A stretch of DNA of 25,186 nt from a virus. Each line of letters begins with the position of its first letter. The first letter of the stretch is position 1. The notes beneath the pieces are model-generated. The model made no database searches, had not been told where the DNA came from, and worked only from the letters and a program-made list of their open reading frames with translations. Below are positions 7,162 to 23,602 of the stretch, in pieces. The stretch spans positions 1 through 25,186 of IMG/VR virus record IMGVR_UViG_3300005918_001071, one strand, 5' to 3'. The position numbers were made by a program, and so were the translations under genes.

Positions 7162-7575
7162 ATGAGCAGTGAGCATGAAACCCGAGCGCTGGAAACGCCC
7201 CAAGCAGTCGGCCCTGGCCGCAAGCAAGACGTCCGAAACTGGGCCACCCTATCAATCCAAATAGTTGCAGAGCCTGGGGCCGAGTACCCTCCAGAGAGCG
7301 GAGAAGAGGACGACTACGGCCCAGAGGGCCACGGGTACGGGTACGGCTACGAGTACGGCAGCACGGGCTTCGTAGGGCGCATCCGCATCGAGGTAAGCCT
7401 GGACGGGATTATGTGGAGCCTGCCGCAGAACACGGAACTTCACGACCTCTCAGTGTTCCCGCACGCGTACATCGAAGAGATCCAGGAGAAGGTCTGCTGG
7501 GTCAGGGTCCGCACTCTGGCGTATACGTCTGGTGAGCTCCAGGTCATGTGCGCTGGCAGGCGGGACGTGAGCTGA
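7162..7575 (+). CDS. Beta-rich small protein with Tyr/Gly-rich loop, possible decoration or acceptor protein
   Basis: This 137-aa protein reads as a small beta sandwich of the type found in phage structural proteins: NWATLSIQI, then GRIRIEVSLDGIMWSLPQN, then VCWVRVRTLAYTSGELQVM. The spacing resembles proteins with a 'SLDGxxW ... VRVRxxAYTSGxLxV' pattern. Inserted between the first and second strand is an acidic Tyr/Gly-rich loop (residues about 48-68) with tyrosines at 52, 59, 61, 63 and 65, encoded partly by GGNTAC hexamer repeats. The start has GGGGAAACG upstream. Its stop overlaps the ATG of the glycosyltransferase gene. It may be a head decoration protein and is a candidate substrate for the enzymes encoded next; both are inference. 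Confidence 0.6.
   Translation: MSSEHETRALETPQAVGPGRKQDVRNWATLSIQIVAEPGAEYPPESGEEDDYGPEGHGYGYGYEYGSTGFVGRIRIEVSLDGIMWSLPQNTELHDLSVFPHAYIEEIQEKVCWVRVRTLAYTSGELQVMCAGRRDVS
7333..7356 (+). repeat. In-frame hexamer repeat (GGNTAC)
   Basis: Four successive units GGGTAC, GGGTAC, GGCTAC and GAGTAC encode Gly-Tyr steps in the 137-aa protein. The unit length keeps the frame, so copy changes would lengthen or shorten the loop without breaking the gene. Confidence 0.6.
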
Positions 7576-10430
7576 TGCGAATTCTGGTCCAGGGGAGGAC
7601 CAGGAGCCCGGACAGCGAAGCGGCGCACCTTGCCCTTGCCTTGGTCCGGGCCAACACCGTCTCCGATGTCGCCCTAGCGCCCCATGATGGTGAGGTAGGG
7701 CTGTCAGCAGCTCGCCACCTCGTCCGCTCGATGGACAAGCCAGACGTGCAGATCCTCGTAGGCGTCTCTGGATCCGCCAGAAAGGGGGCCTACACGGTCG
7801 CCTACCCTGGGATGAACGGGACGTCATGCCCGGGCGTGAGCCTGTCCCTGTCATCCGCCTCCAGCGGTGGCGTGGGCGTGGGGATCGCCAAGGATTTTCT
7901 GGTTCCGAAGGGTCCCTGCTACCGCCATGGGCATCGACTGGTCTACGTGGACTGCGCGTCAGCATGGAAAGATGCTATTGCAGCAGCGGGAGCAGCTCTC
8001 CGCACGAACAAGGCCCTCACCTTCACCCTCGCCAAGACATCGCCCCAGATCCGGGAGCTTGTCCAGCGCTTCGGTCTGAGCCACCGTGTCCGGTATGATA
8101 CTCGGAGCTACGATCCTCAGAATCTGGCTCGAGTCCTCTCCATGCACTGCGCTGTCATGACGGACTTGCCGCAGCTAGCTCTCCGGGGGGCTGGGCTTGA
8201 CCTCCCCGTGGTCACCCTCCGAGACGCTGGCCGGCTCCTCCCCGTGAATGCTTTCCCTGCACTATCTCCAGCGGAAGCGACAGCTGTACTCGTTCAGATT
8301 GACAGCAAGAGCACCGTAGCGACTGCGCGGGCATCTGGTTCCGCTGTTCGCTCATCCTGTCAATGGGGCCTCGTTGCGAGCCGCATCCTGTCCCGTCTGC
8401 CCTGTCCGCTACCCAGCGGCGCCCTCAAGGCTGCGAACTCTGTACAGGGCAAGCCTGCCCCCTCGATGGACGCAGATACAGCGGTATCCCCCAGGGTTGC
8501 CACCGTGGCAAGACGCCCTCGAATCGGGCTGATGCACGACGGCGCAACCTGGGCGTTCAGCCGGATCGCTAAGCAGATGAAGATCCAACTCGAGCCGTGG
8601 GCTGATGTGGTGATCGGTAGCCTGGCGGACCCGCTGAATCCTGACCGGATGGACGCCGTCGTCTTGATCTGGTGGAAGTCGATCCACGCTGTCTGCTCTC
8701 GGCTCCCTGTCAAGACCCGAATCTACCCTTGTCTATACGATTACTTCACATGGACCGGGTGGAGGCAGCACAACCACCTCAGCAACCTCGTGGCACGCTC
8801 TGACGGGCTTATCTTCGCGTCGTGTGACGACCTCTCGCAGCGGCTCATCCGAGAGAAGGTGGCGAAGGAGGCTATCACGCTCACGGATGGAGTGGACCCG
8901 TCCATGTTCGTCGCCCACCCGCGGCCAGCAGATGACGTGCAAAGAGACCTCGTGGTGGGCTGGGTGGGGAACCCCCGGCGACACGGAAAACTCAAGGGGC
9001 TCGGGCTCATCAGGAGAGCCATCAAACAGGTCAAGGGCGTGCGGCTCGTGGAAGCCAACGCTCTTCACTCGCCGGTCCCCTTCGAGCAGATGCCCGCCTT
9101 CTACGCCGGCTTGGATGCAGTGATAGTGGGGAGCACATCTGAGGGGACACCCAACCCTCTCCTGGAGGGGATGAGCGCAGGGCGCGTGGTCCTGTCAACT
9201 GACGTAGGCGTGTCTCCGATGATCCAGTCTCCTGGACTGCGGCGGATCAACTCCAGGACGGTGGACGGGATCGCCTCTGCCCTCAATGACCTCCTAGACA
9301 ACAGGGCGCAGCTCGATGCCTGGGGAGCTGCGAACCGTCGTGAGGTAGAGGAGCGCTGGACATGGGAACGGAGACTAGAGCCCTTCGTGTCGCGGTTGAG
9401 GACTGACCTGAGAAACCTCCCAGCGGCTGCCCCACGCTCTCCCGTGCCAGAGGCCCCGAAGGCGGTAGTCATCCCGGTGACGACGCGGCCAGCGACGGAG
9501 AAGCCGCGTGCTCTCTTGATCTCGGACGTGCGAGCCTGGGCATTCCACCAGAACATGAGCGACCTCGAGGCGCACCTGAAGGGCCGCTTCAGCTTCGATC
9601 ACTTCTTCGTGATGGATTACCAGAACGGGACGCCACTGCCGGACCTGAGCCGCTACGACAGCATCTTCTGTTGTTACCACCGCTGGCCGGTCTGCCCGCA
9701 CCTCCCCATGGATCGCACCGTGGGGAGCCTACGAGCGCTCTGGTTTTGGCCGGAGTCCCCGGGCCCACCTGGACCGCGGGAGTACGCTCTGGTCAACAGC
9801 TACAAGGCATTCCATGTCGTCACCAAGCAGAACTACCAGGAGTTGGAGCCCCACTGCCCCGGCGTGGTCTACCTGACGAATCCGGTGAACATGGCTCGCT
9901 TCCCCACACCTACACCCGTCGAAGGCGAGGTGATCGCTTCATGGAATGGGAACGCGCAGCACTACAACATCGCGGGCCAAGACGTGAAGGGCTACAGCTC
10001 CTGCCTCGTGCCCGCCTGCCAAGCCGCTGGGGTCCCGCTGCACGTCGCAGAGTACAACACGAGCCGCAAGTCCCCGGCGCAGATGCCTGCCTTCTACGGG
10101 CAAGCGAACCTTTCGGTCTGCGCCTCGTTATATGAGGGGGCGAGCAATAGCGTTATGGAAAGTATGGCAGCAGGGCTCGCTGTCGTGGCGACGGACGTGG
10201 GCAACCACCGAGAGATGAGGGACGCGCAGCTTGCGGACTTCGGTGAGAGCGGGATCATTCTGTTGTCCAGCCGTGCCCCTGCCACGATCGCCAAAGCGTT
10301 GACGTGGCTCAAGCGTGACCCTGCGCGAGTGAAAGCGATGGGCCTGGTCAACCGGGCAGAAATCGAGAAGCGGTGGAGCTGGGCGGTCTGGCGCGACCGC
10401 TACGCCACCTTCCTGGAAGCAGCGCTGTAG
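7575..10430 (+). CDS. Multidomain glycosyltransferase with tandem GT-B (GT4-like) modules
   Basis: This 951-aa protein contains two clear GT-B modules. Module 2 runs from about residue 313 (RPRIGLMHDGATWAF) through a nucleotide-sugar-binding half with VVGWVGNPRRHGK near 460 and EGTPNPLLEGMSAG near 522. Module 3 runs from about 644 (RALLISDVRAWAFHQ) through IASWNGNAQHY near 790 and EGASNSVMESMAAG near 854. In GT4 enzymes the E-x7-E motif contacts the donor. The similar openings suggest duplication. The first 290 residues look like a third, diverged module (start MRILVQGRTRSPDSEA; later VRYDTRSYDPQNLARVLSMHCAVM). It would transfer sugars from activated donors in the cytoplasm; substrate unknown. 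The start at 7575 overlaps the previous stop (TGATG). A start at 7548 would lie inside the previous gene. Confidence 0.85.
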   Translation: MRILVQGRTRSPDSEAAHLALALVRANTVSDVALAPHDGEVGLSAARHLVRSMDKPDVQILVGVSGSARKGAYTVAYPGMNGTSCPGVSLSLSSASSGGVGVGIAKDFLVPKGPCYRHGHRLVYVDCASAWKDAIAAAGAALRTNKALTFTLAKTSPQIRELVQRFGLSHRVRYDTRSYDPQNLARVLSMHCAVMTDLPQLALRGAGLDLPVVTLRDAGRLLPVNAFPALSPAEATAVLVQIDSKSTVATARASGSAVRSSCQWGLVASRILSRLPCPLPSGALKAANSVQGKPAPSMDADTAVSPRVATVARRPRIGLMHDGATWAFSRIAKQMKIQLEPWADVVIGSLADPLNPDRMDAVVLIWWKSIHAVCSRLPVKTRIYPCLYDYFTWTGWRQHNHLSNLVARSDGLIFASCDDLSQRLIREKVAKEAITLTDGVDPSMFVAHPRPADDVQRDLVVGWVGNPRRHGKLKGLGLIRRAIKQVKGVRLVEANALHSPVPFEQMPAFYAGLDAVIVGSTSEGTPNPLLEGMSAGRVVLSTDVGVSPMIQSPGLRRINSRTVDGIASALNDLLDNRAQLDAWGAANRREVEERWTWERRLEPFVSRLRTDLRNLPAAAPRSPVPEAPKAVVIPVTTRPATEKPRALLISDVRAWAFHQNMSDLEAHLKGRFSFDHFFVMDYQNGTPLPDLSRYDSIFCCYHRWPVCPHLPMDRTVGSLRALWFWPESPGPPGPREYALVNSYKAFHVVTKQNYQELEPHCPGVVYLTNPVNMARFPTPTPVEGEVIASWNGNAQHYNIAGQDVKGYSSCLVPACQAAGVPLHVAEYNTSRKSPAQMPAFYGQANLSVCASLYEGASNSVMESMAAGLAVVATDVGNHREMRDAQLADFGESGIILLSSRAPATIAKALTWLKRDPARVKAMGLVNRAEIEKRWSWAVWRDRYATFLEAAL

Positions 10431-10450
10431 AAAACGAACGGAGGACCGTC

Positions 10451-11353
10451 ATGGATTCCAAGCTGATCGACCTGCTTCGCTGCCCGGCCTGCAAGGGTAC
10501 CGATCTCGTGATCTCAGGAAAAAAGAGGGTCGCCCTCGTCTGCCGTGAGTGCAAGCACAGGACCAGGGTTCTGGACGACATTCCGCGCTTCGTTGCCGCC
10601 GGTGATCAGGGATTCAATGAGCGCTGGCAGCGTCACGCGAAGCCCCAAGCCAACGATGGCCGCAATCAAGCGATCTTCGAGGACAAGACGGGCTGGCACC
10701 CCTGGGACATGGACGGCAAGACGTTCCTTGTCGGCGGCTGCGGAGCTGGCCGGTTCCCCCGTCTGGCAGTGGACAACGGTGCCACCATCATCGGCGTGGA
10801 CGGGACAGCGACGGGTCTTGAGGGCACGGCGAAGCTGGTTCCAGAGGCGCTGCTGCTGCAGGCTGACCTCCTGGATCTGTCCATGCTTCGAGACGGCTGC
10901 GTGGATGCCGCCTGGAGCATCGGGGTGCTGCATCACACCGCAGATCCCGAAAAGGCTTTCAACGAAATCGCTCGTTGCATCAAGCCTGGTGGGTCCTTCG
11001 CCGTGTGGGTCTACGTCCAGCACACGACAGACCCCGCGCTGCTCGCTCCCCTGGAGATGTTCCACGCCATCACCCGTTGCTGCCCCCCCGGCAAGCTGTA
11101 TGAGGCGATCGAGAAGTACGCTCCTGGTGTGCGGGACACCTATAACAAGGCATGGGGACCGCTCCAGCAGATCCTCCGCGTTTCCATTGAGGAAAACAAC
11201 GAGGACTGCATCAGCGATACCTTCGACTGGCACACGCCGCAGTACCGGAGTTGGCACACCGAAGCCGAGGTGCGCGGCTGGTTCGAGGCGGCTGGCTTCA
11301 GCGTGGACCGCGTCGGAGACTTCCCGGTAACGATGCGTGGCGTAAAGAACTGA
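10451..11353 (+). CDS. SAM-dependent methyltransferase with N-terminal zinc ribbon
   Basis: The 300-aa protein opens with a Trm112-like zinc ribbon (Cys 11, 14, 31 and 34 in CPAC...CREC). A class I methyltransferase domain follows: motif I FLVGGCGAGRFPRLAV near residue 93, an acidic residue in IIGVDGT, and the AWSIGVLHHTADPEKAFNEIARCIKPGG stretch (shown here in two parts: WSIGVLHHTADP and IARCIKPGG) typical of the Methyltransf_11 group. The C-terminus has a long helical segment and a final YRSWHTEAEVRGWFEAAGF pattern common in methyltransferases of polysaccharide and natural-product clusters. ATG 10451 follows CGGAGG. It sits 20 bases after the glycosyltransferase gene, suggesting it methylates the same product or acceptor. 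Substrate cannot be deduced. Confidence 0.85.
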   Translation: MDSKLIDLLRCPACKGTDLVISGKKRVALVCRECKHRTRVLDDIPRFVAAGDQGFNERWQRHAKPQANDGRNQAIFEDKTGWHPWDMDGKTFLVGGCGAGRFPRLAVDNGATIIGVDGTATGLEGTAKLVPEALLLQADLLDLSMLRDGCVDAAWSIGVLHHTADPEKAFNEIARCIKPGGSFAVWVYVQHTTDPALLAPLEMFHAITRCCPPGKLYEAIEKYAPGVRDTYNKAWGPLQQILRVSIEENNEDCISDTFDWHTPQYRSWHTEAEVRGWFEAAGFSVDRVGDFPVTMRGVKN

Positions 11354-11364
11354 GGGGAACTCAG

Positions 11365-12327
11365 ATGAGCGAAGATCCAGTCTACAACTACCGAATTGGG
11401 CCGGCACACATCACCTTCTATCTCGGGTGGAAGTGCAACGCTCGTTGCATCATGTGCTGGCAGGACGTCGCCAGGAGAAAGCAGCGGGAAAAGGGCGAGT
11501 CTCCCCCAGAGCTCTCCTTCGATCATTTCAACGCAATTCTTCAGCGCTATCCTTCCACTGCGTCAATAGAGCTTTGTTCGTTTGGCGAGCCCATGCTGAA
11601 TCCCGACTTCGGCAAGATGCTTGATCTGCTTCTGTCACATAAAGAGCGCTGGCAGAACGTCAACATCATCACCAATGGATCGCGGCTAGATCGGTTCATG
11701 GGAATCGGAGCGCTGCCTGGGTCGCTCACGGTCTCTATCGACAGCCCAGACCCGACGACATACGCAGAAATCCGCAGGGGGCTGAGGCTTGGCCCAGTCG
11801 CTAGAAACGTGAGAAGCTTCATCGATCAGAGAACCAACGATCAGCGATTCGTCGGCATCAACATGGTCTTGCTCCGCAAAAATCTGGATCAAATCGAACA
11901 AATGGCGCAGATGGCAGTAGACATCGGAGTCGACTACCTGGCCTTGCTGCGTGGGGCCACCCTGGAATACACAGACGCGGCAGGAGAGGGGGTACCAGAG
12001 GGCGATCCGGCCGTTAAAGCGGCCATTCAGAAGATCGCCGAGAGGTTCCCAAAGCTACGCGTGATCGACTACTTCAACCCAGAGCATACAGGGCGAGACA
12101 AGGCCAAGCAGGGTCACTGCCTGCACCCGTGGATCAACCTAGATGTAGGGCCCGACGGCAAGACCCACCCATGTTGCCGGGCACACCGTCTCGACTTCGG
12201 AGACGCTCTCACAGGGAACCCGTGGGACAACTGGACACTGGTAGAGCTCCGAGAACAGATCCAGTCGGGGAAGGTAGACGCTGAGCGCTTCCCCGACTGC
12301 GCCAAATGCCCGATGCTGCTCGGATAG
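11365..12327 (+). CDS. Radical SAM/SPASM protein 1
   Basis: This 320-aa protein has the radical SAM [4Fe-4S] motif CNARCIMC (Cys 24, 28, 31), the GEP motif in CSFGEPMLNPDF, the TNGSRL strand, and the SIDSPDP segment. The C-terminus is a SPASM-type region with HCLHPWINLDVGPDGKTHPCC near residues 250-271 and CAKC near 312-315, which would bind an additional cluster. Family members reduce SAM to a 5'-deoxyadenosyl radical and act on peptides, sugars or other small molecules. The ATG at 11365 follows GAGGGGAA. It is 11 bases after the methyltransferase gene and 9 bases before a second radical SAM gene. The order within SPASM proteins gives no substrate; sugar or protein modification is plausible from context. 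Confidence 0.85.
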   Translation: MSEDPVYNYRIGPAHITFYLGWKCNARCIMCWQDVARRKQREKGESPPELSFDHFNAILQRYPSTASIELCSFGEPMLNPDFGKMLDLLLSHKERWQNVNIITNGSRLDRFMGIGALPGSLTVSIDSPDPTTYAEIRRGLRLGPVARNVRSFIDQRTNDQRFVGINMVLLRKNLDQIEQMAQMAVDIGVDYLALLRGATLEYTDAAGEGVPEGDPAVKAAIQKIAERFPKLRVIDYFNPEHTGRDKAKQGHCLHPWINLDVGPDGKTHPCCRAHRLDFGDALTGNPWDNWTLVELREQIQSGKVDAERFPDCAKCPMLLG

Positions 12328-12336
12328 GGGTCAGCA

Positions 12337-13263
12337 ATGCAACGTATCGGAATGATCTACCTGTGGCTCGGAGAATCCTGCAACGCCAGGTGCCGCAAGT
12401 GCTGGGCTCAGCATCCTCCGAGGAAGCACGTCTGGGCAGGAGATATGCCGACGGACAAGGCTATCGAGTTGCTGCGTCGCTACCGTCCTGTAGGGGTCAA
12501 CCTGACATCCTACGGCGAGCCGTTTGTTCATGCCGGGATCGGAGAGATCATTGTTGAGTGTGAGCGCCTTGGAATCGAGGTGCACGCGTGCTCCAACGGG
12601 GCGCTAATCAGGCAGAGCGGGCAGGTGGACTCGATCGCCAGAACCCCTGGTTTTTTGACCGTCTCATGCGACAGCGCTGATGCTGAGCTACACGACTGGA
12701 TGCAACCTGGCGCAGCGTTCGACGCCGTTGATGAGGCAGTCCGTGCTATCACAACGCATCCGAGTAGGCACCCTGGACGGCAGGTGTACCTGAACCTCGT
12801 AGCGAGCAAGATGAACGTCCACGACCTCAACAAGACGATGGAGTGGGCTCAAGATGTAGGCTTTGGGCTAGTGAACGTTATCCGAGCCTACGGCATGGAC
12901 AAGACCCCGGCGGCGGGGCAAGAGCTGCTGCACGATGATCCTCGAGTGATTGCCGCCATTGCCTTCGGTCGCGGGCTTGGGCTCACCGTGGCCGACAACT
13001 TCTCCCACGTTGACGCCCTCCACGCCCCGCCAGCTCCTGGATGCGATCTCGTCATGATCTGGGTCAACCCAGACGGAAGCACCCACGCCTGCTGCTTCTC
13101 GTCGGGCCAGCAACTCGGAAACGTCTTCCAGGAGGACGTGTGGAACGGGGCTAAGGTGAGGCGGCTAAGCGAGCAACTGGCGGCTCGTTGTGTCGACGCA
13201 AAAGAGTTCCCAGCATGCGCAGCCTGTCCGCGTGTGCAACCAGTCAAGACAACGAAGGAGTAG
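12337..13263 (+). CDS. Radical SAM/SPASM protein 2
   Basis: This 308-aa protein has CNARCRKC (Cys 15, 19, 22), LTSYGEPF, CSNGALI and a SCDSAD segment, all typical of the radical SAM barrel. The C-terminal SPASM region has GCDLVMIWVNPDGSTHACC and FPACAACP. It resembles the preceding gene in plan (same motif order and similar length) but is clearly diverged, so the pair are paralogues or two separate acquisitions rather than a recent duplication. The gene starts at ATG 12337 behind ATAGGGG, 9 bases after its neighbour. It probably acts in the same pathway; the substrate is unknown. Confidence 0.85.
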   Translation: MQRIGMIYLWLGESCNARCRKCWAQHPPRKHVWAGDMPTDKAIELLRRYRPVGVNLTSYGEPFVHAGIGEIIVECERLGIEVHACSNGALIRQSGQVDSIARTPGFLTVSCDSADAELHDWMQPGAAFDAVDEAVRAITTHPSRHPGRQVYLNLVASKMNVHDLNKTMEWAQDVGFGLVNVIRAYGMDKTPAAGQELLHDDPRVIAAIAFGRGLGLTVADNFSHVDALHAPPAPGCDLVMIWVNPDGSTHACCFSSGQQLGNVFQEDVWNGAKVRRLSEQLAARCVDAKEFPACAACPRVQPVKTTKE

Positions 13264-13268
13264 CCCCG

Positions 13269-14513
13269 ATGCGACATATTTGCGTGATGGGAGTCGCGGG
13301 CGTTGGCAAGAGCTACCTTTGTTTTTCGTGTGTGCCGGACCTGATTATTGGGAAAAACAAGGGACATTCGCTGGTTGATGGCACCATTCTAGTTCCTTCG
13401 GACGAAAGTATACGAAAAAGCAGAGCACTGCTCGGCATCAAAGTCGATGAGAAGGTCTGCTCTGTCAAGATGGGCGAGGTATACGCCGACGCCAGAAGCC
13501 GCCTGGGGAAAAATGTTCAGGGACGAGCCATCAACTCGCTTGTTGATGTGATGTTCACTGAAATCTGTGACAGCTTGGCAGATGATGTCGACGTAGTTTT
13601 GTGTGACTACGCACACGCAGCAAGAGAAAACGAGGCAATCTTCTATCTGACTGCCCCGCTGAGCGTGCTGGAAGACCGTAGCAAACAGAAGTTCTGGAAC
13701 CGGACTGCTTTTAATCCGGCAAACATACTGAAACACCTCCGTCATGGGCTACTTGAGCCAAACGCATGGTCAGTTTCTCCAAATATACACCATTTGTACT
13801 GGCACAATGAGCAATGGATGCCTCTCGCCAAAGGAGTCAAGGCTCGCATCAAAGAGCTGGCTCCATGGTACCACCACGCCGATCTCGCTGGGATTGCGGT
13901 AGCACCTCCCAATGCCGCCAACGGGTGGGAAAAGTGGGGACACTATCGAGAGTGCATGCCTGAGTCACTCAAGGGACTGCTCTGCTTGGATATCGGGATG
14001 AATGCTGGCTTCAACGCCTTCTCCCTGGCCCGCGAGGGCGCCAACGTGATTGGGTATGAGCCTGACAAGCGGTTCAGGACGCAACACCAACTCACCAGAG
14101 AGCTGGGTCCCGACGGGCAAGAAATCACAAGCCGGGTTGAGGTGAGACCTGCACTGATCCAGTCAGCGCCGATTCCAGAAAAACACATTGACATCGCGCT
14201 GCTCGGGGCAATCCACTACCATGTCAATCGATCTGGCTTCGCACCGTACCGAGCCCCGCGTCGAGACTACGGAATCCCGGATCTGCTCCCGCCGCTGGCG
14301 GTCTTGCTCGAGGATCTCCTGGACAAGGCTGGGCTCGTCATCATCGGAACCAACAAGGCCCACGCTGACCGGCCACCGGCCAAGAGACCCTACCCGGAAT
14401 CACTTCCTGAGTGGATCATGGATGCTCTGATCAAGATCGGATTCCACGATGTCAAGCTGGCAACGAATCACCGGATAACCACGCCCATCGTAGTCGCCAG
14501 AGGAAGAGGCTAG
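13269..14513 (+). CDS. Fusion of a P-loop NTPase/kinase-like domain and a CmoB-like methyltransferase
   Basis: The 414-aa product begins with a Walker A motif (GVAGVGKS, residues 8-15) and a possible Walker B strand (DVVLCDYAHA) near residue 112, as in small P-loop kinases. From about residue 195 (ELAPWYHHADLAGI) it switches to a class I methyltransferase close to the CmoB/DUF1698 pattern: WEKWGHY, then LPxSLxG-like PESLKGLLCLDIGMNAGFNAF near 232-250, then GYEPD. The usual Gly-Cys of motif I is Gly-Met here. The P-loop half is noticeably lower in GC (about 47-48% in the two 60-base lines I counted, 13321-13440) than its surroundings. ATG 13269 follows GAAGGAG. A kinase plus methyltransferase could phosphorylate and methylate a sugar or nucleoside; this is speculative. 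Confidence 0.75.
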   Translation: MRHICVMGVAGVGKSYLCFSCVPDLIIGKNKGHSLVDGTILVPSDESIRKSRALLGIKVDEKVCSVKMGEVYADARSRLGKNVQGRAINSLVDVMFTEICDSLADDVDVVLCDYAHAARENEAIFYLTAPLSVLEDRSKQKFWNRTAFNPANILKHLRHGLLEPNAWSVSPNIHHLYWHNEQWMPLAKGVKARIKELAPWYHHADLAGIAVAPPNAANGWEKWGHYRECMPESLKGLLCLDIGMNAGFNAFSLAREGANVIGYEPDKRFRTQHQLTRELGPDGQEITSRVEVRPALIQSAPIPEKHIDIALLGAIHYHVNRSGFAPYRAPRRDYGIPDLLPPLAVLLEDLLDKAGLVIIGTNKAHADRPPAKRPYPESLPEWIMDALIKIGFHDVKLATNHRITTPIVVARGRG

Positions 14514-14538
14514 ACGCGTGGCCCTGGGAGACAACACA

Positions 14539-15537
14539 ATGACCCAGCGGAGAGTCCTAGTCACCGGAGGCGCCGGATTTATCGGCTCCCACCTCGTTGA
14601 TGCCCTCGTCCAGGAGGGGCACGCGGTCGCGGTCGTGGACGATCTCTCCTCTACAGGGAGCCGGCGCAACCTGCGGTCTGCAGTCGCAATGGCATACAAG
14701 ACAGGTGCTCCTATTCCGCAGATGTTAGTCCGGTCCATCCTGAGCGATGGCGACTGGCCGGGATGGGTGGAGGAAAAGCTAGGTGGCCCGCCGAAAGCGA
14801 TCTTCCACCTTGCGGCTATCCCGTCGGTGGCACGCTCCGTCAGGGATCCCGAGGCATCCGTCAAAACGAACGTCTTGGGCACCCTTCGTGTCCTGGGGGC
14901 TGCGCACGCCTGGGGCTGTAGAGTCGTCCAGGCATCCTCATCGTCCGTGTACGGGGGCATCCAAGGAGGTGGGGCGAGAACCGAGAACGAGCGGCCGATG
15001 CCTCTCAGCCCCTACGCTGCGAGCAAGGCGGCGGCTGAGCACCTCGCATCCTCCTACGCCCACTGTTTCGGGCTCTCGATCGCGTCCCTTCGCTTCTTCA
15101 ACGTGTTTGGGCCGCGCCAGGACCCGAATAGCCAGTATGCCGCCGTGGTACCCGCCTTCGTGACGAGAGCGCTCCAGGGAGAGCCGCTGACCGTCCACGG
15201 GGACGGCAAGCAGAGCCGGGACTTCACTCCGGTCTGGAACGTCGTGTCAGCCCTCCTGACCGCCGCAAGACAGTCCACCCGAATCTCGGGAGCACCTGCG
15301 ATCAACATCGGCATGGGCAGGTCCCACTCCCTCCTGGATCTGATTAGCTGCTTGTCGGCGATCCTGAACCGAGAGTTGACCGCGGAGCATGAGCCCCGCC
15401 GGCCTGGTGATCCAGATTTCTCAGAGGCAGACATCGGTCTGGCGACGTCGGTCCTCAGCTACAGCCCACACGTCAGCTTCGAGGAAGGGCTACGCAAGAC
15501 GGTGGCTTGGTTCCAGAACGTCCAGGAGAGAAGCTGA
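14539..15537 (+). CDS. NAD-dependent sugar-nucleotide epimerase/dehydratase (extended SDR)
   Basis: The 332-aa protein has the Rossmann motif VTGGAGFIGSHL (glycines at 10, 13 and 16), DDLSSTGSRRNL, HLAAIPSVARS, SSSSVYGG and the catalytic YAASK (Tyr 159, Lys 163). It also has the FFNVFGPRQDPNSQYAAVVP and HGDGKQSRDFT segments characteristic of UDP-sugar 4-epimerases and related dehydratases. It would convert one nucleotide sugar to another in the cytoplasm, supplying donors for the glycosyltransferase encoded upstream. I use ATG 14539 (GGGAGA upstream); a GTG at 14518 in the same frame, with GGAAGAGG upstream, would add seven residues. The stop overlaps the next start (TGATG), so it is coupled to the amidotransferase gene. 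Confidence 0.85.
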   Translation: MTQRRVLVTGGAGFIGSHLVDALVQEGHAVAVVDDLSSTGSRRNLRSAVAMAYKTGAPIPQMLVRSILSDGDWPGWVEEKLGGPPKAIFHLAAIPSVARSVRDPEASVKTNVLGTLRVLGAAHAWGCRVVQASSSSVYGGIQGGGARTENERPMPLSPYAASKAAAEHLASSYAHCFGLSIASLRFFNVFGPRQDPNSQYAAVVPAFVTRALQGEPLTVHGDGKQSRDFTPVWNVVSALLTAARQSTRISGAPAINIGMGRSHSLLDLISCLSAILNRELTAEHEPRRPGDPDFSEADIGLATSVLSYSPHVSFEEGLRKTVAWFQNVQERS

Positions 15538-17297
15538 TGTGTGGACTCGTTGGCGTGGTCGGGTTGCCAGGTGCTCCCCGTGAGCCCCTCCAAGATGAGG
15601 TGCTGAGCGGGCTGGTCAGGCTCGGGCATCGGGGCCCTCACGGTAGGGGCTTCTCCACGTGTCGAATCGGCGGGAGACCTGTCGTTGTGGGTGGGGCTCG
15701 CCTGGAGATCGTCGGCGGTCCTGGCGTCGTGGTGCCCTACCGAGACGAGGCAACCAAGGTCACGGTGGCCTTCAATGGTGAGCTGTATAACCACCGCCCC
15801 CTGCGCGCAGAGCTCAGCGACGGCATCCCCTGGGTCACTAGCTGCGATACCGAGGTGATCGCCCGGGCGTGGGGACGCTGGGGGCCCGGCATGCTGGATC
15901 ACTTCAACGGGATGTTCGCCATTGTCGTAGTGGATCAACGGCAAGGCGTCGTCTTCCTCGCTCGTGACAGAGCTGGCCAGAAGCCGCTCTATTGGACCGG
16001 CGGTGGTGACGAGCCTCTCTGGTTCGCCTCCGAGATCAAGGCTCTCCCTGGACAGCGAGAGGAGTGCGCGTGTCCCGCTATGGAGCTGCTCGAGTTCGAC
16101 TGCGGGAGCGTCACGCCATTCGCTGGCGTCCATGCGGTGGACCCCGGGACATGCCATCAGATCCACCCTGGAGACCACCTCCGAGTCGAGACCACCACCT
16201 GGTGGCAACTCCCCATCTACAGCCCCATGGAGCAGCACACAGACCGCGTGACCGCCGAAGAGGAGCTGCTCGCGCTGCTCGTGGATGCTGTGAAGCTCCG
16301 GGCTACCGCCGATGTCCCCATGTCGCTGCTGCTCTCCGGCGGGCTCGACAGCGCCATCATCCAAGCCATCGCGCAGGAGCAGCACCTGTATTGCTGCGAC
16401 TTCGATGGGGTGGACAACATCACGGGAGCGCGGCTCGCCAGCTTCGGCCGCCACGACGACGTGCAGCGCGTCACCTTCGGACCTAATGACGTACTCGAGG
16501 ACTTGCGCTCCGTTGCCTGGCACCTCGACACGCCGGCCACATGGACAGCGCTCTGTCACTGGCACCTCGCCCGCCAGATTGCAGCCGACGGCGGGCGCGT
16601 GGTGCTCAGTGGTGAGGGTGCAGACGAGCTCTTCGGCGGCTACACCCGCTATCGCCTGTTGTGGCACTTGGACAGGGCAGCATCGGACCCCCACCTGGAG
16701 CCAGCATACCGCCCCACCCGTGACCAGCTCCTGGGACCCGACCTCGAGGTATTGGCGAGGATGCTGGACAGGAGCGGGGGAGGTCCCGAGGGTCCCGACA
16801 GAGATACGGCGCGGCACCTTGTAGCGCGACACGGGGGCAGCAGCCCCCTGCTCGTTGACCGCATGGCCCGCGTAGACTTCTACACCACCATGCAGGTGCT
16901 GCTCCGCATGGCCGATCGCATGATGGCCGCGCACTCGCTGGAGAACCGAAGCCCCTTCCTGGATCATCGGGTCATGGAATGGGCGGCGCGCTGCCCAGCG
17001 TCGTGGAAGATCACTGAGCGGGAATCCAAGAGCGTGCTGCGCAACATCGCTCGGCAGCTCGGGGTCTACAAGGGCACCATTGACGAGCGCACCAAGCGGG
17101 GTCTCTTCATCCCGTGGCAGGCGTGGCGTTCGCAGATCATGGGGTCCACCGTGGAGACTCCAGGGGCTCGTGGGGCGTGGGACCGTTCGGGCTTCGCTAC
17201 CCTCATGCGCGAAGCGTGGCGGTCTGCTTTCTTTGGTGCCCACCCTGGGCCAGACAAATCTGAATGGGCAGAAGGAGAACTCCATGACAGAGCTTGA
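15537..17297 (+). CDS. Asparagine synthetase-type glutamine amidotransferase (AsnB-like)
   Basis: The 586-aa protein begins MCGLVGVVG, exposing the catalytic Cys2 of class II glutamine amidotransferases. The glutaminase signatures follow: LGHRGPHGRG (canonical HRGPDG, with His for Asp here), FNGELYNH, CDTEVI, FNGMFAIV, DRAGQKPLYW and FASEIKAL. The synthetase half has LLSGGLDSAI near residue 264 (PP-loop) and SGEGADELFGGYTRY near 358, then NRSPFLDHRVMEW. The reaction is ATP-dependent transfer of glutamine nitrogen to a carboxylate. In surface-polysaccharide clusters such enzymes (for example WbpS of Pseudomonas O-antigen) amidate sugar acids rather than aspartate. With an epimerase and glycosyltransferases next door, a sugar acid or protein carboxylate is a likelier target than free aspartate. 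ATG 15537 overlaps the previous stop. Confidence 0.88.
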   Translation: MCGLVGVVGLPGAPREPLQDEVLSGLVRLGHRGPHGRGFSTCRIGGRPVVVGGARLEIVGGPGVVVPYRDEATKVTVAFNGELYNHRPLRAELSDGIPWVTSCDTEVIARAWGRWGPGMLDHFNGMFAIVVVDQRQGVVFLARDRAGQKPLYWTGGGDEPLWFASEIKALPGQREECACPAMELLEFDCGSVTPFAGVHAVDPGTCHQIHPGDHLRVETTTWWQLPIYSPMEQHTDRVTAEEELLALLVDAVKLRATADVPMSLLLSGGLDSAIIQAIAQEQHLYCCDFDGVDNITGARLASFGRHDDVQRVTFGPNDVLEDLRSVAWHLDTPATWTALCHWHLARQIAADGGRVVLSGEGADELFGGYTRYRLLWHLDRAASDPHLEPAYRPTRDQLLGPDLEVLARMLDRSGGGPEGPDRDTARHLVARHGGSSPLLVDRMARVDFYTTMQVLLRMADRMMAAHSLENRSPFLDHRVMEWAARCPASWKITERESKSVLRNIARQLGVYKGTIDERTKRGLFIPWQAWRSQIMGSTVETPGARGAWDRSGFATLMREAWRSAFFGAHPGPDKSEWAEGELHDRA

Positions 17298-17598
17298 CGC
17301 AGCCAAAGCAGCGGCCCTCCTCGTTGACAACGGGCTTCTCTGGGACATCAATCGGCGCATCCTTCATCCGCTCGGGCTCGCTCTTGCGGTTGACATGGAT
17401 GGCGAGGACTTCCTGAAGTTCTCTCTCCTGGAGACCAGGGACCCAGAGGGGCTCGCTTTCGACGCAGAAGCCATGGCGGACGGAATCCAAAAGCACCGCG
17501 CCTACATGCGGCACATCGGCAACGCTCGGGTCATCAAACGACGTGCTGCGCTCGGCTACGCTATCCAAGGGACGGGACCCAAACCGCGGAAGGGCTAG
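17284..17598 (+). CDS. Conserved small phage protein
   Basis: The 104-aa protein contains GLLWDINRRILHPLGLALAV followed by DFLKFSLLETRDPEG. I recognise this combination (a 'LLxxINRxxLHPLGLAL' segment then 'TRDPEG') from small proteins encoded near head and tail genes of other phages, with no known function. Its ATG, behind AGAAGGAG, lies 14 bases inside the end of the amidotransferase gene. It marks the return from the enzyme cassette to ordinary structural-operon genes. Confidence 0.65.
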   Translation: MTELDAAKAAALLVDNGLLWDINRRILHPLGLALAVDMDGEDFLKFSLLETRDPEGLAFDAEAMADGIQKHRAYMRHIGNARVIKRRAALGYAIQGTGPKPRKG

Positions 17599-17646: not shown

Positions 17647-18399
17647 ATGGGCAACTACTGCGAGCTTCAGGACGTCCGTGACGAGGGCTTCACGGTCGCT
17701 CAGTTCAGTGACGCCAGGGTTAACGCTCAGAGGACTCTCGCAACCACCTACATCAACGAAATGTGCGGGCAGTGGTTCGAGGCTCGCGAGTTTGCAGACT
17801 CAGCACCGCTCGAGCTGTGTGGCGACGACAGCAAGATCCTCCATGTCCCGATCCCGATCATTTCCGTGTCTCGTGTCCGAGTCCTCAACCGGGCGCTGGG
17901 GTCTTCGTCCTACGTGGATCTCGACGCTGACAGCTACTACGTCTACAACCGGCACATGGACGGGATGACCAGTGGAGCTGCTGATGATCGAGACAATCCG
18001 AGGATTACGGCTATCGCCGCTGAGACGCCACAACGGCGCTACCTCGAGTGGGACACCACTGGGCCGCGTTTTCCACGTGGGAGTGGAAACGTGCAGCTCT
18101 CCGGCTGGTTCGGTTATACCGATCCGTCTGATGAGTACGGCTACGAGGCGACTGGAGTCACTCCACCGCTCATCGTTCACGCCTGCCTTCTCCTCGTGGT
18201 TCGTGAGCTGGAGCTCCTCCGTCGTCAAAGCAGGCGGGCTACCTGGAGAAATCGAAATCGGATCATCGAGGCGTGGACCAAGGATCAAAAGTACACGCTG
18301 GCGAAGCTACTACAGGGCGGTTTTTTGACAGGAGATCAAGAGATCGACTCTATCCTGGCTCGCTACACCCGGGGCTATGGCCGAGTGGGTAGCGCATGA
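17647..18399 (+). CDS. Head-tail connector (gp6-like adaptor) protein
   Basis: The 250-aa protein has the layout of the HK97 gp6/SPP1 gp15 adaptor class. A helical N-terminus (CELQDVRDEGFTVAQFSDARVNAQRTLATTYINEMCGQWF) is followed by beta strands (LELCGDDSKILHVPIPIISVSRVRVL), a YLEWDTTGPRFPRGSGNVQLSGWFGY strand region, and C-terminal helices (LIVHACLLLVVRELEL). Such proteins dock beneath the portal. It is the first of three tightly linked neck genes, with ATG overlap at 18396. The ribosome site is AAGGAGG. Identification rests on architecture and order, as the sequences in this class are diverse. Confidence 0.65.
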   Translation: MGNYCELQDVRDEGFTVAQFSDARVNAQRTLATTYINEMCGQWFEAREFADSAPLELCGDDSKILHVPIPIISVSRVRVLNRALGSSSYVDLDADSYYVYNRHMDGMTSGAADDRDNPRITAIAAETPQRRYLEWDTTGPRFPRGSGNVQLSGWFGYTDPSDEYGYEATGVTPPLIVHACLLLVVRELELLRRQSRRATWRNRNRIIEAWTKDQKYTLAKLLQGGFLTGDQEIDSILARYTRGYGRVGSA

Positions 18400-18911
18400 T
18401 CAACCCAGGGACCATCTGGACCTACACCGTGGTCATCGGACGGCTCAACACCGCTGCCATGGAGGCCGCTGGCGTCTACAACGACGTGCTCCGTGAGCCC
18501 GTCCTGTCTGACTCAGACGGCGATGGAGTCGGGGAGACCGTTCGAGAGGAGACGGAGCTGGAGGTCCCTGCTCAGATCGCCACGGACACCTGGGAAAAGC
18601 TGCGCCTTGCCGCTGGAGGGCTCGCACCGAGCACGGAGATCGCCATCGCCTTCGACCGTGAGGAGTTGGAGATCGCAGACATGCTGGACACCACCGGAGA
18701 GACCCTGCTGAGGCAGAGCGATCGGCTCATCAGGGTGGACGACATGGACGGCGTGACCATTATGACCTTCCCCACTGACCCCAATGAAGATGACTACAGG
18801 CCCCCGCTGGTCGCTACGAGCATCCGGCCCACCGGGTTCATGGGCGCCCAGAACCTCGTTAACGTGATCTTCCAGCAACGTGACGTCTTCGGCGGACGCT
18901 TCGGCTCATGA
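18396..18911 (+). CDS. Head closure / neck protein
   Basis: The 171-aa protein is beta-rich and acidic, with an initial WTYTVVIGRLNT strand, ETELEVPAQI and GLAPSTEIAIAFDREELE, DRLIRVDDMDGV and a final LVNVIFQQRDVFGGRF strand. Position between the connector and the tail completion gene fits a head-closure (stopper) protein, and the small beta-barrel-like strand pattern agrees. No specific family is named with certainty. It overlaps both neighbours by four bases (ATGA), so translation of the three neck genes is coupled. Confidence 0.5.
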   Translation: MINPGTIWTYTVVIGRLNTAAMEAAGVYNDVLREPVLSDSDGDGVGETVREETELEVPAQIATDTWEKLRLAAGGLAPSTEIAIAFDREELEIADMLDTTGETLLRQSDRLIRVDDMDGVTIMTFPTDPNEDDYRPPLVATSIRPTGFMGAQNLVNVIFQQRDVFGGRFGS

Positions 18912-19588
18912 GCGCCACCCTCACAGGCCAGTGGAAAGAAGCTCTCAAGACCCTGACCGACCTCTCCAAGAAGTCTGCCCCGATTGCCGGCCAAGTCATG
19001 ATGCGGGAGGGTCTCCGGTACCAAGAGGAAATGAAGGACCGGATCCTCAAGCAGAAGATCGTCCCGCCTCCTCTGAGCGAGTTCACACTGAAGCTGCGGA
19101 AGCTCCGAGGCTTCGCGGGGACCAAGGCCCTGATCGTCAACCGAGACCTCGTAGGATCGATCAAGGCGGTCCCCATCAGCAAGGGAGGGCGGCTCCTGGA
19201 CGTATCGATCTCGACTTCTGGGCAGATCTATGGGGTCTTCGCTGGGGTCAACAGAAAAGCCCGTGCAAAGAAGGCCGGGAAAGCGTGGGCAGGGAAGCTG
19301 GTCAACGTGGCATGGGCCCAGGAGAAGGGAGCTGGCCCGTTCTACATCACGGTGACGCCGGCTCTCCGCAGATTCTGGGTCTACCTTTTCATGAATGGCG
19401 TAGTGAACGCCCCGCTCAAGAGGAGCACGACGCAGATCGGACCCATCCGAATTCCAGCGAGGCCCTTTGTCGGCCCGGTTTTCAAGGCAAATCGAAGGAC
19501 TGGGCCAGCCAGAATCAAGAAAGCAGTCACCATTGAGCTAGACAGGCTTGCGCAGAGGAATGGAGCGCGGCCTGGAGAGACAATTTAA
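18908..19588 (+). CDS. Tail completion protein, HK97 gp10 / virion morphogenesis-like
   Basis: The 226-aa protein starts with a helical stretch (WKEALKTLTDLSKKSAPIAGQVMMREGLRYQEEM), has LRKLRGFAGTKALIVNRDLVGSI-type central strands (LIVNRDLVGSIKAVPI), and ends with the IPARPFVGPVFKANR motif followed by a basic helix. The I-P-A-R-P-F segment and the 'L..SI.....' strand are hallmarks of the HK97 gp10/Mu gpG-like neck proteins that prepare the head or tail for joining. The ATG overlaps the previous stop, and its stop overlaps the next start by one base. Confidence 0.7.
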   Translation: MSATLTGQWKEALKTLTDLSKKSAPIAGQVMMREGLRYQEEMKDRILKQKIVPPPLSEFTLKLRKLRGFAGTKALIVNRDLVGSIKAVPISKGGRLLDVSISTSGQIYGVFAGVNRKARAKKAGKAWAGKLVNVAWAQEKGAGPFYITVTPALRRFWVYLFMNGVVNAPLKRSTTQIGPIRIPARPFVGPVFKANRRTGPARIKKAVTIELDRLAQRNGARPGETI

Positions 19589-20106
19589 TGACGACGACAG
19601 CGAAAAGGGCGGCGGCGGTGCTTGGGTTGAGCTGCGTCGTGATCCTGTTCTCCCTCGCTATAGGGGCTTGCTCGGTGGCCTGGGCGGATCCATCTCCCCC
19701 TTCTCCTGGAGTCGTGGCCCCCTCGAGTACCTTGGTTGACGCAGCTCGCTACGGTCTCCCCGCCGGAGGGTCTGCATCGCTCACCGCCTTCCTGATGTGG
19801 TTTCTGCTCCGGAGGAAAGAGGATCCAGTCAGCGGGCACGCCGCCGTAGTAACCAAGCGCTTCGACAGTCTCGAGTCAGCGCTGAGAATGATGGCCGAGT
19901 GCGATCGGCTCTCTGCTCAGAGGATAGCGGATTATCAGGTGCGGTCACTCGCCCTCCTGGAGGCGATACAGGAGACCAACCGAGGCATCCACGAGGTCCA
20001 ACGAATCCAAGCGGAAAAAACGACGGCAGCTCATAGGACACAAGCCCTTGAGCTTCGAGACCTGGTCAAAGGACATGCTACCGTTATCGCAGCTGTAGGC
20101 GGCTAG
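19588..20106 (+). CDS. Membrane protein with N-terminal signal anchor and helical C-terminus
   Basis: The 172-aa protein has an N-terminal hydrophobic segment (about residues 8-33) with a lipobox-like IGAC and an AWA site, a Pro/Ser-rich loop, a second hydrophobic segment around 57-75 (SASLTAFLMWFLL) capped by RRKED, and about 95 residues of charged helix likely to form a coiled coil (SLESALRMMAEC...AIQETNRGIHEVQRIQAEK). No family is recognised. Two membrane segments with both ends inside would suit a class II holin; the lipobox could instead make it a lipoprotein. Its location among neck genes is unusual for either. The start overlaps the preceding stop (TAATG). Confidence 0.6.
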   Translation: MTTTAKRAAAVLGLSCVVILFSLAIGACSVAWADPSPPSPGVVAPSSTLVDAARYGLPAGGSASLTAFLMWFLLRRKEDPVSGHAAVVTKRFDSLESALRMMAECDRLSAQRIADYQVRSLALLEAIQETNRGIHEVQRIQAEKTTAAHRTQALELRDLVKGHATVIAAVGG

Positions 20107-21346: not shown

Positions 21347-23602
21347 ATGTCCAATCTGCTGAGAAGCCAGGTCGCAATCCAGGAAGCGAATCCTGAAGTC
21401 AGACCGATCCGAGCGAGCGCTGTCCACGTCTCCTGTTTCGTGGGGATCGCCAAGAAGGGCCCCCTCGTCACCGCTACGGAGATCCTGGATCTGGAGCAGT
21501 TCACCAAGATATTCGGGGAGCACCGCGCCTCCACGACCCTCCGGACAGCGGTAGAGGCTCACTTTGGTGAGGGCGCCGGACGCTGCTACATCAGCCGTAC
21601 CTGTCACTTCACCGACATCACGGACGCCACGACCTTCGCGGCCGTGGCCTCGAGTCTCACGCTCAAGACCGATGCGATCGCAACGGCGAGCGCAGGGGCT
21701 GTCACCGGGACAGTCAGCGCACCGTTCAACCTGGAGCCTCTGGACACCCTGGAGATCCACGTAGACGAGGAGGCGCTTGGTCCTGACACCGCGACCTTCA
21801 CGGCTACGGCCGCTATCCTGAACGGTTCTGCGGGACCGTTCGACCTGACGTTGACCCCGGTGCTGAACCTCACGCTCAATGACGTGGCGATCCAGACCTA
21901 CACCTTTGTAGCTGGTGACTTCGGCGCAGGCATCGCCGCGGCAACCCGTGCCGAGGTGGCAGCCGCCATCAACCGTGAGTTCGCGGGCGTCCAGGCTTAC
22001 GACAGCGGGGCGGTCCTTATCGTCCGGACGGACTGGCGTGGCTCTGATGCTACCCTGACCGAGAGCGGCAACGCTTCGACTGTCCTTGGCCTGGACACAG
22101 GCCCCACGGCATCCACCGGGAACTGCGCCAACATCGACGCGGTCACGGCCGCTGAGATCAAGACGATTGTGGAGGCGGCGTGCGTCAACGGTACCTGCAC
22201 GGTCACCGGGGCCACGACCATCACGATGACATCGGACACCACCGGGGTGGGATCCACGATCATGGTCGAGGTGGCATCCACTGCCGACGATGAGCTGGGC
22301 TTCGACAACATCAGCCACGCGGGCTCCGCGGCGTCTCCTGCGGTGGACACGCTGACCGTGGATGCGAAATACGAAGGCGGATGGGGCGACAACCTCGCCA
22401 TCACCATCGAGGACGCCAGCAACGCCGAGGCGGCTCTCTTCAACCTCAAGGTCTACGAGTCCAGCGTGCTGCGTGAGACGTGGCCGAACGTGTCGATGCT
22501 CGACACTCATGCTAGGTTCTGCGAGACCATCATCAACGATGCAACCACGGGGTCTACCCGTATCACTGTCACCGACCTGGACTGCGGGGAGACCCCCCCG
22601 GCGGATCGTCCCGTCAACATCGCCTACACCGCAGCAGCTCTGGCGGGTGGAGATGATGGGATCGTGGCCATCGCTGACACGGACTTCGTTGGGAGCTCTG
22701 CCGGCGGAACCGGGATGAACGCCTTTGACGTGAAAGACGACGGGACCCTGCTCGTGGTCCCTGATCGGAGCGCCAACCAGACGGTCTCCACCGGGATGAT
22801 CGCCTACTGCGAGGTGGCCCGAAAGGGTCGGATGTTCGCCCTGATCGATCAGAGCGCCGATCTCACCGCCAGCGCGTCCAAGACGGACCTGTCCACACGG
22901 TCCCTGGGGGCGGCTACTGAGTTCGCTGGTGTCTGGTGGCCACGGATTAAGGTCGCCAACCCGGACAAGGACGTCCACGGGAGCGGTGAGACCATCACTA
23001 TTCCCAACTCTGGCCTAGTGTCCGGGGTCATGGGTCGGGTCGCGTCCAGCAAGTCCGGCGGGATCTACGAGAACCCGGCTGGCGAAGAGGTGGGCAAGCT
23101 GTTCACCGCTCTGGGGCTGGAGACCGAAGAGGTACGCAAGGACGCTGCCCGCGACCTGGTCTACCCTGAGCGAATCAACCCGATCACGAAGACCTCTGGC
23201 GGCGTGATCTACCTAGACGGATCGCGGACTCTGAAGGGCACGGGCAACTTCCCGGCGCTGGCTGAACGTCTGGGAGCGACCTTCATCGAGTTCGCCATCA
23301 AGGCGGGGATCCAATTCGCCAGGCATCGGAACAACGACGCTAAGCTGCGACGCCAGATCCATCGGACGGTCTACGCCTTCCTGCTGATCCAGATGAGGGT
23401 CGGGGCGTTCCGGTCCATGGATCCGACGGACGCCTTCACCGTCAACTTCGGGGACGATCTGAACCCGCCCACGGAGATCTTCGCGAATCGCCTCAACGGG
23501 GAGATCGGGCTGGCCACGCAGAAGCCGGCCGAGTTCATCCCGATCACGTTCCGTCAGGATACCCGCGACATTCAAGCAGAGCTGGCAGCGGCGGGCGCGT
23601 AG
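21347..23602 (+). CDS. Contractile tail sheath protein
   Basis: The 751-aa protein has sheath hallmarks at both ends. The N-terminus includes SAVHVSCFVGIAKKGPLVTATEILDLEQF and IFGEHRASTTLRTAVEAHFGEG. The C-terminus includes YLDGSRTL, GTGNFPALAERLGATFIEFAIK and the sheath-like tail LNGEIGLATQKPAEFIPITF. Between residues about 105 and 340 is a long Thr/Ala-rich beta insertion with two diverged units, each containing an AAxxAEv helix and a following GT/DT strand region that ends in LG(L/F)D. It is larger than a typical sheath of about 400-500 aa because of the insert, which would point outward on the tail. Sheath contraction drives the tube through the host envelope. The ATG follows GAGAGGGGAG. 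Confidence 0.88.
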   Translation: MSNLLRSQVAIQEANPEVRPIRASAVHVSCFVGIAKKGPLVTATEILDLEQFTKIFGEHRASTTLRTAVEAHFGEGAGRCYISRTCHFTDITDATTFAAVASSLTLKTDAIATASAGAVTGTVSAPFNLEPLDTLEIHVDEEALGPDTATFTATAAILNGSAGPFDLTLTPVLNLTLNDVAIQTYTFVAGDFGAGIAAATRAEVAAAINREFAGVQAYDSGAVLIVRTDWRGSDATLTESGNASTVLGLDTGPTASTGNCANIDAVTAAEIKTIVEAACVNGTCTVTGATTITMTSDTTGVGSTIMVEVASTADDELGFDNISHAGSAASPAVDTLTVDAKYEGGWGDNLAITIEDASNAEAALFNLKVYESSVLRETWPNVSMLDTHARFCETIINDATTGSTRITVTDLDCGETPPADRPVNIAYTAAALAGGDDGIVAIADTDFVGSSAGGTGMNAFDVKDDGTLLVVPDRSANQTVSTGMIAYCEVARKGRMFALIDQSADLTASASKTDLSTRSLGAATEFAGVWWPRIKVANPDKDVHGSGETITIPNSGLVSGVMGRVASSKSGGIYENPAGEEVGKLFTALGLETEEVRKDAARDLVYPERINPITKTSGGVIYLDGSRTLKGTGNFPALAERLGATFIEFAIKAGIQFARHRNNDAKLRRQIHRTVYAFLLIQMRVGAFRSMDPTDAFTVNFGDDLNPPTEIFANRLNGEIGLATQKPAEFIPITFRQDTRDIQAELAAAGA

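Follow-up and report, generated by a model that had tools for sequence, protein, structure and literature searches.

A seven-gene putative sugar-tailoring cassette between the capsid and head-tail adaptor genes of an environmental contractile-tailed phage

Gene content and layout of the cassette

The DNA analyzed here (hereafter the window) is an entire IMG/VR virus record, a linear fragment of 25,186 bp from an environmental phage. Its tail is of the contractile type, with sheath and tube genes past a neck1-like gene. A block of seven enzyme genes (7575-17297), all of them intact and on the same strand as the structural genes, separates the region of the major capsid protein (MCP) from the head-tail adaptor. 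The features of the region are the following:

4468-5418, + strand: MCP, the upstream landmark (phrog_1623, E = 7e-78; 39-45% identity to kin MCPs)
5469-5504, + strand: strong hairpin followed by a T-rich tract, just after the MCP (16 pairs; consensus match only)
6844-7101, + strand: small head gene (34% identity, E = 4e-10, to L180:6381-6614)
7162-7575, + strand: Gly/Tyr-rich-loop protein of 137 aa, coupled to the next gene (no family matches)
7575-10430, + strand: glycosyltransferase (GT) of 951 aa, two GT4-type lobes in tandem (PF13692, E = 2e-24, two stretches)
10451-11353, + strand: class I methyltransferase (MT) with an N-terminal Trm112-like zinc ribbon (PF08241, E = 8e-19; PF03966, E = 5e-5)
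11365-12327, + strand: first radical SAM/SPASM protein, rSAM1 (PF04055, E = 6e-13; SPASM, E = 4e-4; CNARCIMC at residue 24)
12337-13263, + strand: second radical SAM/SPASM protein, rSAM2 (PF04055, E = 1e-12; SPASM, E = 5e-5; CNARCRKC at residue 15)
13269-14513, + strand: P-loop NTPase-like domain fused to a TIGR04290/CmoB-like MT (TIGR04290, E = 6e-16; Walker A GVAGVGKS at residue 8)
14539-15537, + strand: NDP-sugar epimerase, an extended SDR (PF01370, E = 2e-56; GGAGFIG and YAASK, the latter fitting YxxxK)
15537-17297, + strand: AsnB-type glutamine-dependent amidotransferase (TIGR01536, E = 1e-92; Cys2, SGGLDS, GEGADE)
17284-17598, + strand: small phage gene overlapping the AsnB end (phrog_3954, E = 2e-8)
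17647-18399, + strand: head-tail adaptor, the downstream landmark (phrog_442, E = 2e-8; kin homolog directly after the MCP/small genes)
18908-19588: neck1-like gene, downstream of the adaptor
21347-23602, + strand: tail sheath (phrog_15814, E = 2e-148; about 40% identical to full-length kin in Myxococcota genomes)

Chance does not account for seven long ORFs whose motifs are intact and whose family E-values reach 1e-92. The two GT lobes are 33% identical to each other over 164 columns, while the N-terminal third of the protein has no family assignment. All four cysteines of the MT zinc ribbon (CxxC...CxxC; Cys 11, 14, 31, and 34) are present. The two radical SAM proteins are paralogs (32% identical) and both keep the CxxxCxxC motif. 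The P-loop domain matches no family and is assigned from its Walker A motif only. The top PDB match of the epimerase was 6wjb (E = 7e-56) and AsnB matched 1ct9 (E = 3e-33); among curated NCBIfam cut-offs, AsnB exceeded that of asn_synth_AEB only. AlphaFold models were of low confidence, with a mean pLDDT of 32 for the P-loop/MT fusion and 39 for the 7162-7575 protein. No TM-like segment was detected in any of the seven cassette proteins. A viperin (pVip) identity was considered for the radical SAM proteins and rejected, as rSAM1 (43.8 bits) and rSAM2 (43.2 bits) fell short of the 180-bit cut-off and the padloc match covered the radical SAM core only.

Successive cassette genes are separated by 20, 11, 9, 5, 25, and -1 nt. 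The GT start falls on the last base of the 7162-7575 stop codon (a 1-nt overlap), and that of AsnB falls in the same way on the epimerase stop codon. The 17284-17598 gene overlaps the 3' end of AsnB by 14 nt. The initial annotation had described seven consecutive same-strand enzyme genes between head and neck genes, tightly spaced, two of them starting on the preceding stop; coordinates, families and motifs agree with this, the gaps ranging from -1 to 25 nt and the two starts being those of the GT and AsnB. It had also seen no terminator between 6221 and 17598, which holds in practice: the only hairpin-plus-T matches on the + strand there are two weak ones (6960 and 12637), both within coding sequence. 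From this gene order we infer that the cassette would be co-expressed, late, with the head and neck genes. The hairpin at 5469-5504 is a possible attenuator that may lower the expression of the genes downstream; it might also split the MCP from the genes behind it, which counts against a single-operon reading.

The capsid-adaptor site in related phages

Two short IMG/VR contigs, L002 and L003, match the window at 100%, on its tail side only; L003 additionally encodes tape measure-like, LysM-like and gpD-like genes (named by eye). The sample from which L003 derives (3300025697) is mentioned together with an Antarctic saline-lake phage in a paper whose contig identifiers differ between text and legend (PMC8116208), and such a habitat for the window phage is therefore tentative. 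Close kin were retrieved by searching IMG/VR with an MCP profile and whole genomes with a sheath profile. The whole-genome search gave full-length sheath homologs of 734-751 aa, about 40% identical, in several Myxococcales-phylum genomes and, on sequence grounds, the phage belongs to a large myophage family with Myxococcota-linked relatives. Actinomycetota were set aside as the host lineage (best sheath E-value of 1e-82, against 1e-160 for the Myxococcales phylum, a comparison limited by the profile model and the genome sample). The head maturation protease domain of the window occupies only residues 510-625, approximately, of a 634-aa frame (1565-3469) with a long Gly/Pro-rich linker, and the kin L109, L110, and L180 have still longer open frames around this domain. 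Among the neck genes, the product of 19588-20106 (172 aa) contains a TM-like segment (KD 2.5); kin G219 leaves no room for this gene between its neighbors.

The distance between MCP and adaptor was compared across 66 loci having both genes, the window counted and near-duplicates kept; distances were taken from open frames and are approximate. The interval is shorter than 0.65 kb in 30 loci, 0.8-2.8 kb in 25 and longer in the remaining 11, spanning near 0 to 12.2 kb, with the window at the maximum. Kin with the same gene order (G219, G363 twice, G653, and L180) have an interval of 0.4-0.6 kb. In four of these loci (G219, G363:C223, G363:C187, and G653) only 396-420 bp separate the MCP and adaptor matches, and the conserved order is protease, MCP, small gene, adaptor, homologs of the window genes at 18396, 18908, and 20109, and sheath. 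In the IMG/VR contig L180, the homolog of the 6844-7101 gene ends 10 bp before the adaptor (6624), whereas in the window the 7162-7575 gene, the seven enzymes and the 17284-17598 gene sit between the two. Synteny of the distant phages PBP180, RcZahn, and BRock, which have related MCPs or sheaths, is alike: MCP, small genes, then adaptor, neck or sheath genes. The cassette is thus an insertion into a conserved head-neck order at a variable accessory site.

Concerning the other long inserts in IMG/VR kin, most encode large proteins without a Pfam match; of those scanned, the exceptions are L257, with a ConA-like lectin domain, and L255, with a SASA carbohydrate esterase. Because lectin-like and carbohydrate-esterase domains are the only matches in these long inserts, the site suits virion genes that contact surfaces. 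The domain in L255 is sialate-acetylesterase-like and lies at 14543-15178, between MCP and adaptor of that kin phage.

A smaller parallel was found in G785:C330 (L222), where the insert between MCP and adaptor contains a class I MT (PF13649, E = 4e-15) and a GT4 (PF00534, E = 1.5e-14). The order at L222:11412-15024 is a Gly/Tyr-rich small gene of 157 aa, which directly abuts the MT start, the MT, the GT4 and another small gene; the adaptor ORF of this locus is longer, with an N-terminal extension. Beyond fold level, neither enzyme is homologous to those of the cassette. The Gly/Tyr-rich stretch holds 13 Gly and Tyr residues per 30 aa in the G785 protein and 14 in the 7162-7575 protein, which within the window is exceeded only by the low-complexity linker of the protease. 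No homolog of the 7162-7575 gene was seen in the minimal kin. A Gly/Tyr-rich gene before the first enzyme in two cases (the window and G785) is a lead that could be due to chance, and the 7162-7575 product is no more than a candidate for the glycan acceptor.

Distribution of the enzymes in phages and bacteria

No homolog of any cassette protein was found in 157 kin loci (2.47 Mb), and GT4 is absent from the 95.6-kb contig L109. Among 50,697 phage records (INPHARED; the GT was searched by tblastn at E = 1e-5), the GT, the MT and the P-loop/MT fusion had no match, rSAM1, rSAM2, and AsnB had distant matches only, and the epimerase had generic ones. Known virion GTs (Che8 gp110, Corndog gp38, and those of Myrna) are themselves diverse. 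Scans of viral contigs with rSAM1, the P-loop/MT, the rSAM pair and AsnB gave no relative by exact short-peptide matching, which may miss distant ones.

In bacteria, the genome-contig scan with the P-loop/MT gave no match, and that with AsnB led to 80 loci, none with both AsnB and the rSAM pair and each with at most four of the seven cassette families, generic ones. Searches with rSAM1 in 149 Planctomycetota genomes and with the rSAM pair in 379 Myxococcales-phylum genomes gave generic matches of 25-31% only. The full seven-gene set is absent from the kin, the INPHARED phages and the bacterial loci searched. It had been proposed at the outset that the set would be new as one system, and that its occurrence mainly in bacterial chromosomes with no phage link would speak against the proposed pathway; the seven-gene order was found in none of the phage, metagenome-contig or bacterial searches run, and the bacterial loci searched, within their limits, gave no sign of a chromosomal home. 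Near the closest Myxococcota relatives of the fused MT domain, epimerase/dehydratase homologs lie within about 10 kb in four of five loci, compared to none of six rSAM loci of the same phylum taken as a rough control. A Planctomycetota locus (L102) combines GT4, a polysaccharide deacetylase and tandem rSAMs. Together with L105 of the same genome, it represents glycan-type loci in which tandem or triple short radical SAM genes stand beside glycosyltransferases.

A putative virion glycan pathway, its alternatives and known systems

The best reading of the cassette, to which we give a probability of roughly 45%, is a late, cytoplasmic pathway that builds a sugar and attaches it to a virion surface protein. 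A Myxococcota-linked contractile-tailed phage would have gained a seven-gene sugar-tailoring pathway at the accessory site between MCP and adaptor, and through translational coupling at both cassette ends it would be expressed along with the structural genes. In this scheme, the epimerase would adjust an NDP-sugar; epimerization, deoxygenation or another C-H step on it may be the work of one radical SAM/SPASM enzyme or of both; AsnB would form an amide, and the two MTs would also tailor the sugar. Finally, the tandem-lobe GT would transfer it to a protein of the same operon, most likely one exposed on the virion surface. The epimerase, the GT and the TIGR04290-like MT suggest a sugar substrate. 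We infer the step order, the product and the acceptor, and also the radical SAM and AsnB steps, the latter two from family chemistry only; the "amidated and methylated sugar" of the initial annotation is a guess from family names. As none of the enzymes has a membrane segment, synthesis probably takes place with the acceptor in the cytoplasm. Indirect support for virion decoration comes from the independent MT and GT at the same site in kin, from the lectin-like and esterase inserts, and from this lack of membrane segments. Against it, SPASM radical SAM enzymes act more often on peptides, and AsnB homologs also form amides in peptide natural products. In Rhodococcus phages, GT and MT genes have led to the same inference of virion glycosylation (PMC13313380).

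Among the alternatives, synthesis or alteration of a host surface glycan late in infection, so that competing phages or released progeny can no longer adsorb, is unlikely on balance yet deserves attention, as this is the usual reading of clusters of GTs and sugar enzymes in cyanophages and pelagimyophages (PMC7824862, PMC7029224), and the host-recognition regions of the latter also acquire radical SAM cassettes (PMC7029224). Bacterial homologs are likewise found in glycan clusters, and a Brachyspira plasmid carries rSAM, GT and epimerase genes (PMC4267127). However, the cassette contains only soluble enzyme families, with no membrane protein, flippase, polymerase or priming transferase, its insertion site and coupling are structural, and genes for lysogenic conversion would not normally be expressed from a structural operon in the lysogen.

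Modification of a peptide or protein side chain of virion or host by the radical SAM/SPASM pair, AsnB and the MTs, in a RiPP-like manner and with glycosylation by the GT afterwards, appears improbable. Peptide maturases are the commonest SPASM class, and weak NCBIfam maturase matches were obtained (e.g., StsB for rSAM2, E = 5e-14, and lasso cyclase for AsnB), but every such match is far under its curated cut-off. Gaps of 25 nt or less exclude a precursor gene inside the cassette, no RRE or peptidase gene occurs among its Pfam/NCBIfam matches, and the epimerase indicates a sugar.

Still less credence is given to passenger cargo, i.e., recently acquired genes unused in infection, or to an assembly join. 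GC content by gene is mosaic (0.548-0.654, the P-loop/MT being lowest in the cassette at 0.548), neither a second copy of the cassette nor an independent contig across its junctions was found, and the close relatives L002 and L003 cover the tail side alone. On the other hand, the cassette at each end overlaps the neighboring phage gene cleanly, by 1-14 nt, no ORF or motif is disrupted, and codon usage stays inside the range of the structural genes.

Phage base-hypermodification loci can carry P-loop kinases and radical SAM genes, while to our knowledge SPASM rSAM, AsnB and NDP-sugar epimerase are outside their hallmark set. A DNA base hypermodification shielding the genome from restriction is very improbable, even if phage GTs are able to modify DNA (PMC12619734), since the cassette sits among head and neck genes and no hydroxymethylase, DNA-binding or replication gene lies within the 25-kb fragment, itself a minor part of the phage genome.

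Returning to virion glycosylation, which is known in few phages, the cassette is a putative and unusual case of phage-encoded glycan modification, GT-based decoration of virions being already established for mycobacteriophages. A more specific version is doubtful as a whole: here a complete glycan operon within the structural genes would place a radical-SAM-tailored, amidated and methylated sugar on the phage's own head-surface protein, and the MCP-adaptor site would be where a large family of myxobacterial phages exchanges virion glycan enzymes, lectins and esterases. If virion decoration by the cassette is true, a phage can encode an entire pathway of sugar tailoring and not the transferase alone. 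The kin panel supplies empty sites, one minimal MT and GT version and candidate acceptor genes, making the system testable. Radical SAM genes in environmental phages are not new per se, a T4-like ocean phage having 12 of them (PMC5332604); no earlier report linking radical SAM chemistry to virions was found in the literature.

Compared to known systems, phage-encoded GTs are shared with the mycobacteriophages Che8, Corndog, and Myrna, whose own enzymes are reported to glycosylate the capsid and tail tube proteins (PMC12363180, PMC12619734). Those reports center on GTs, whereas the window, which belongs to another phage lineage, has seven enzymes including two radical SAM/SPASM proteins, AsnB and two MTs. 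The polysaccharide clusters of cyanophages, pelagimyophages and jumbo phages also include cargo blocks of GTs and enzymes of nucleotide-sugar metabolism, with radical SAM cassettes in pelagimyophages; however, they lie in host-recognition or accessory regions, while the present block lies within the head-neck order, includes AsnB and the P-loop/MT, and matches them in sequence only through the generic epimerase. In the bacterial loci (Planctomycetota L102 and the Brachyspira plasmid), rSAM genes adjoin a GT and sugar enzymes as they do here, but these loci are chromosomal or plasmid-borne, lack AsnB and the P-loop/MT, and the rSAMs of L102 are only about 25% identical. Finally, G785:C330 shares the phage family, the MCP-adaptor site and a small Gly/Tyr-rich gene followed by an MT and a GT, with two enzymes instead of seven and with sequences that are not recognizably homologous.
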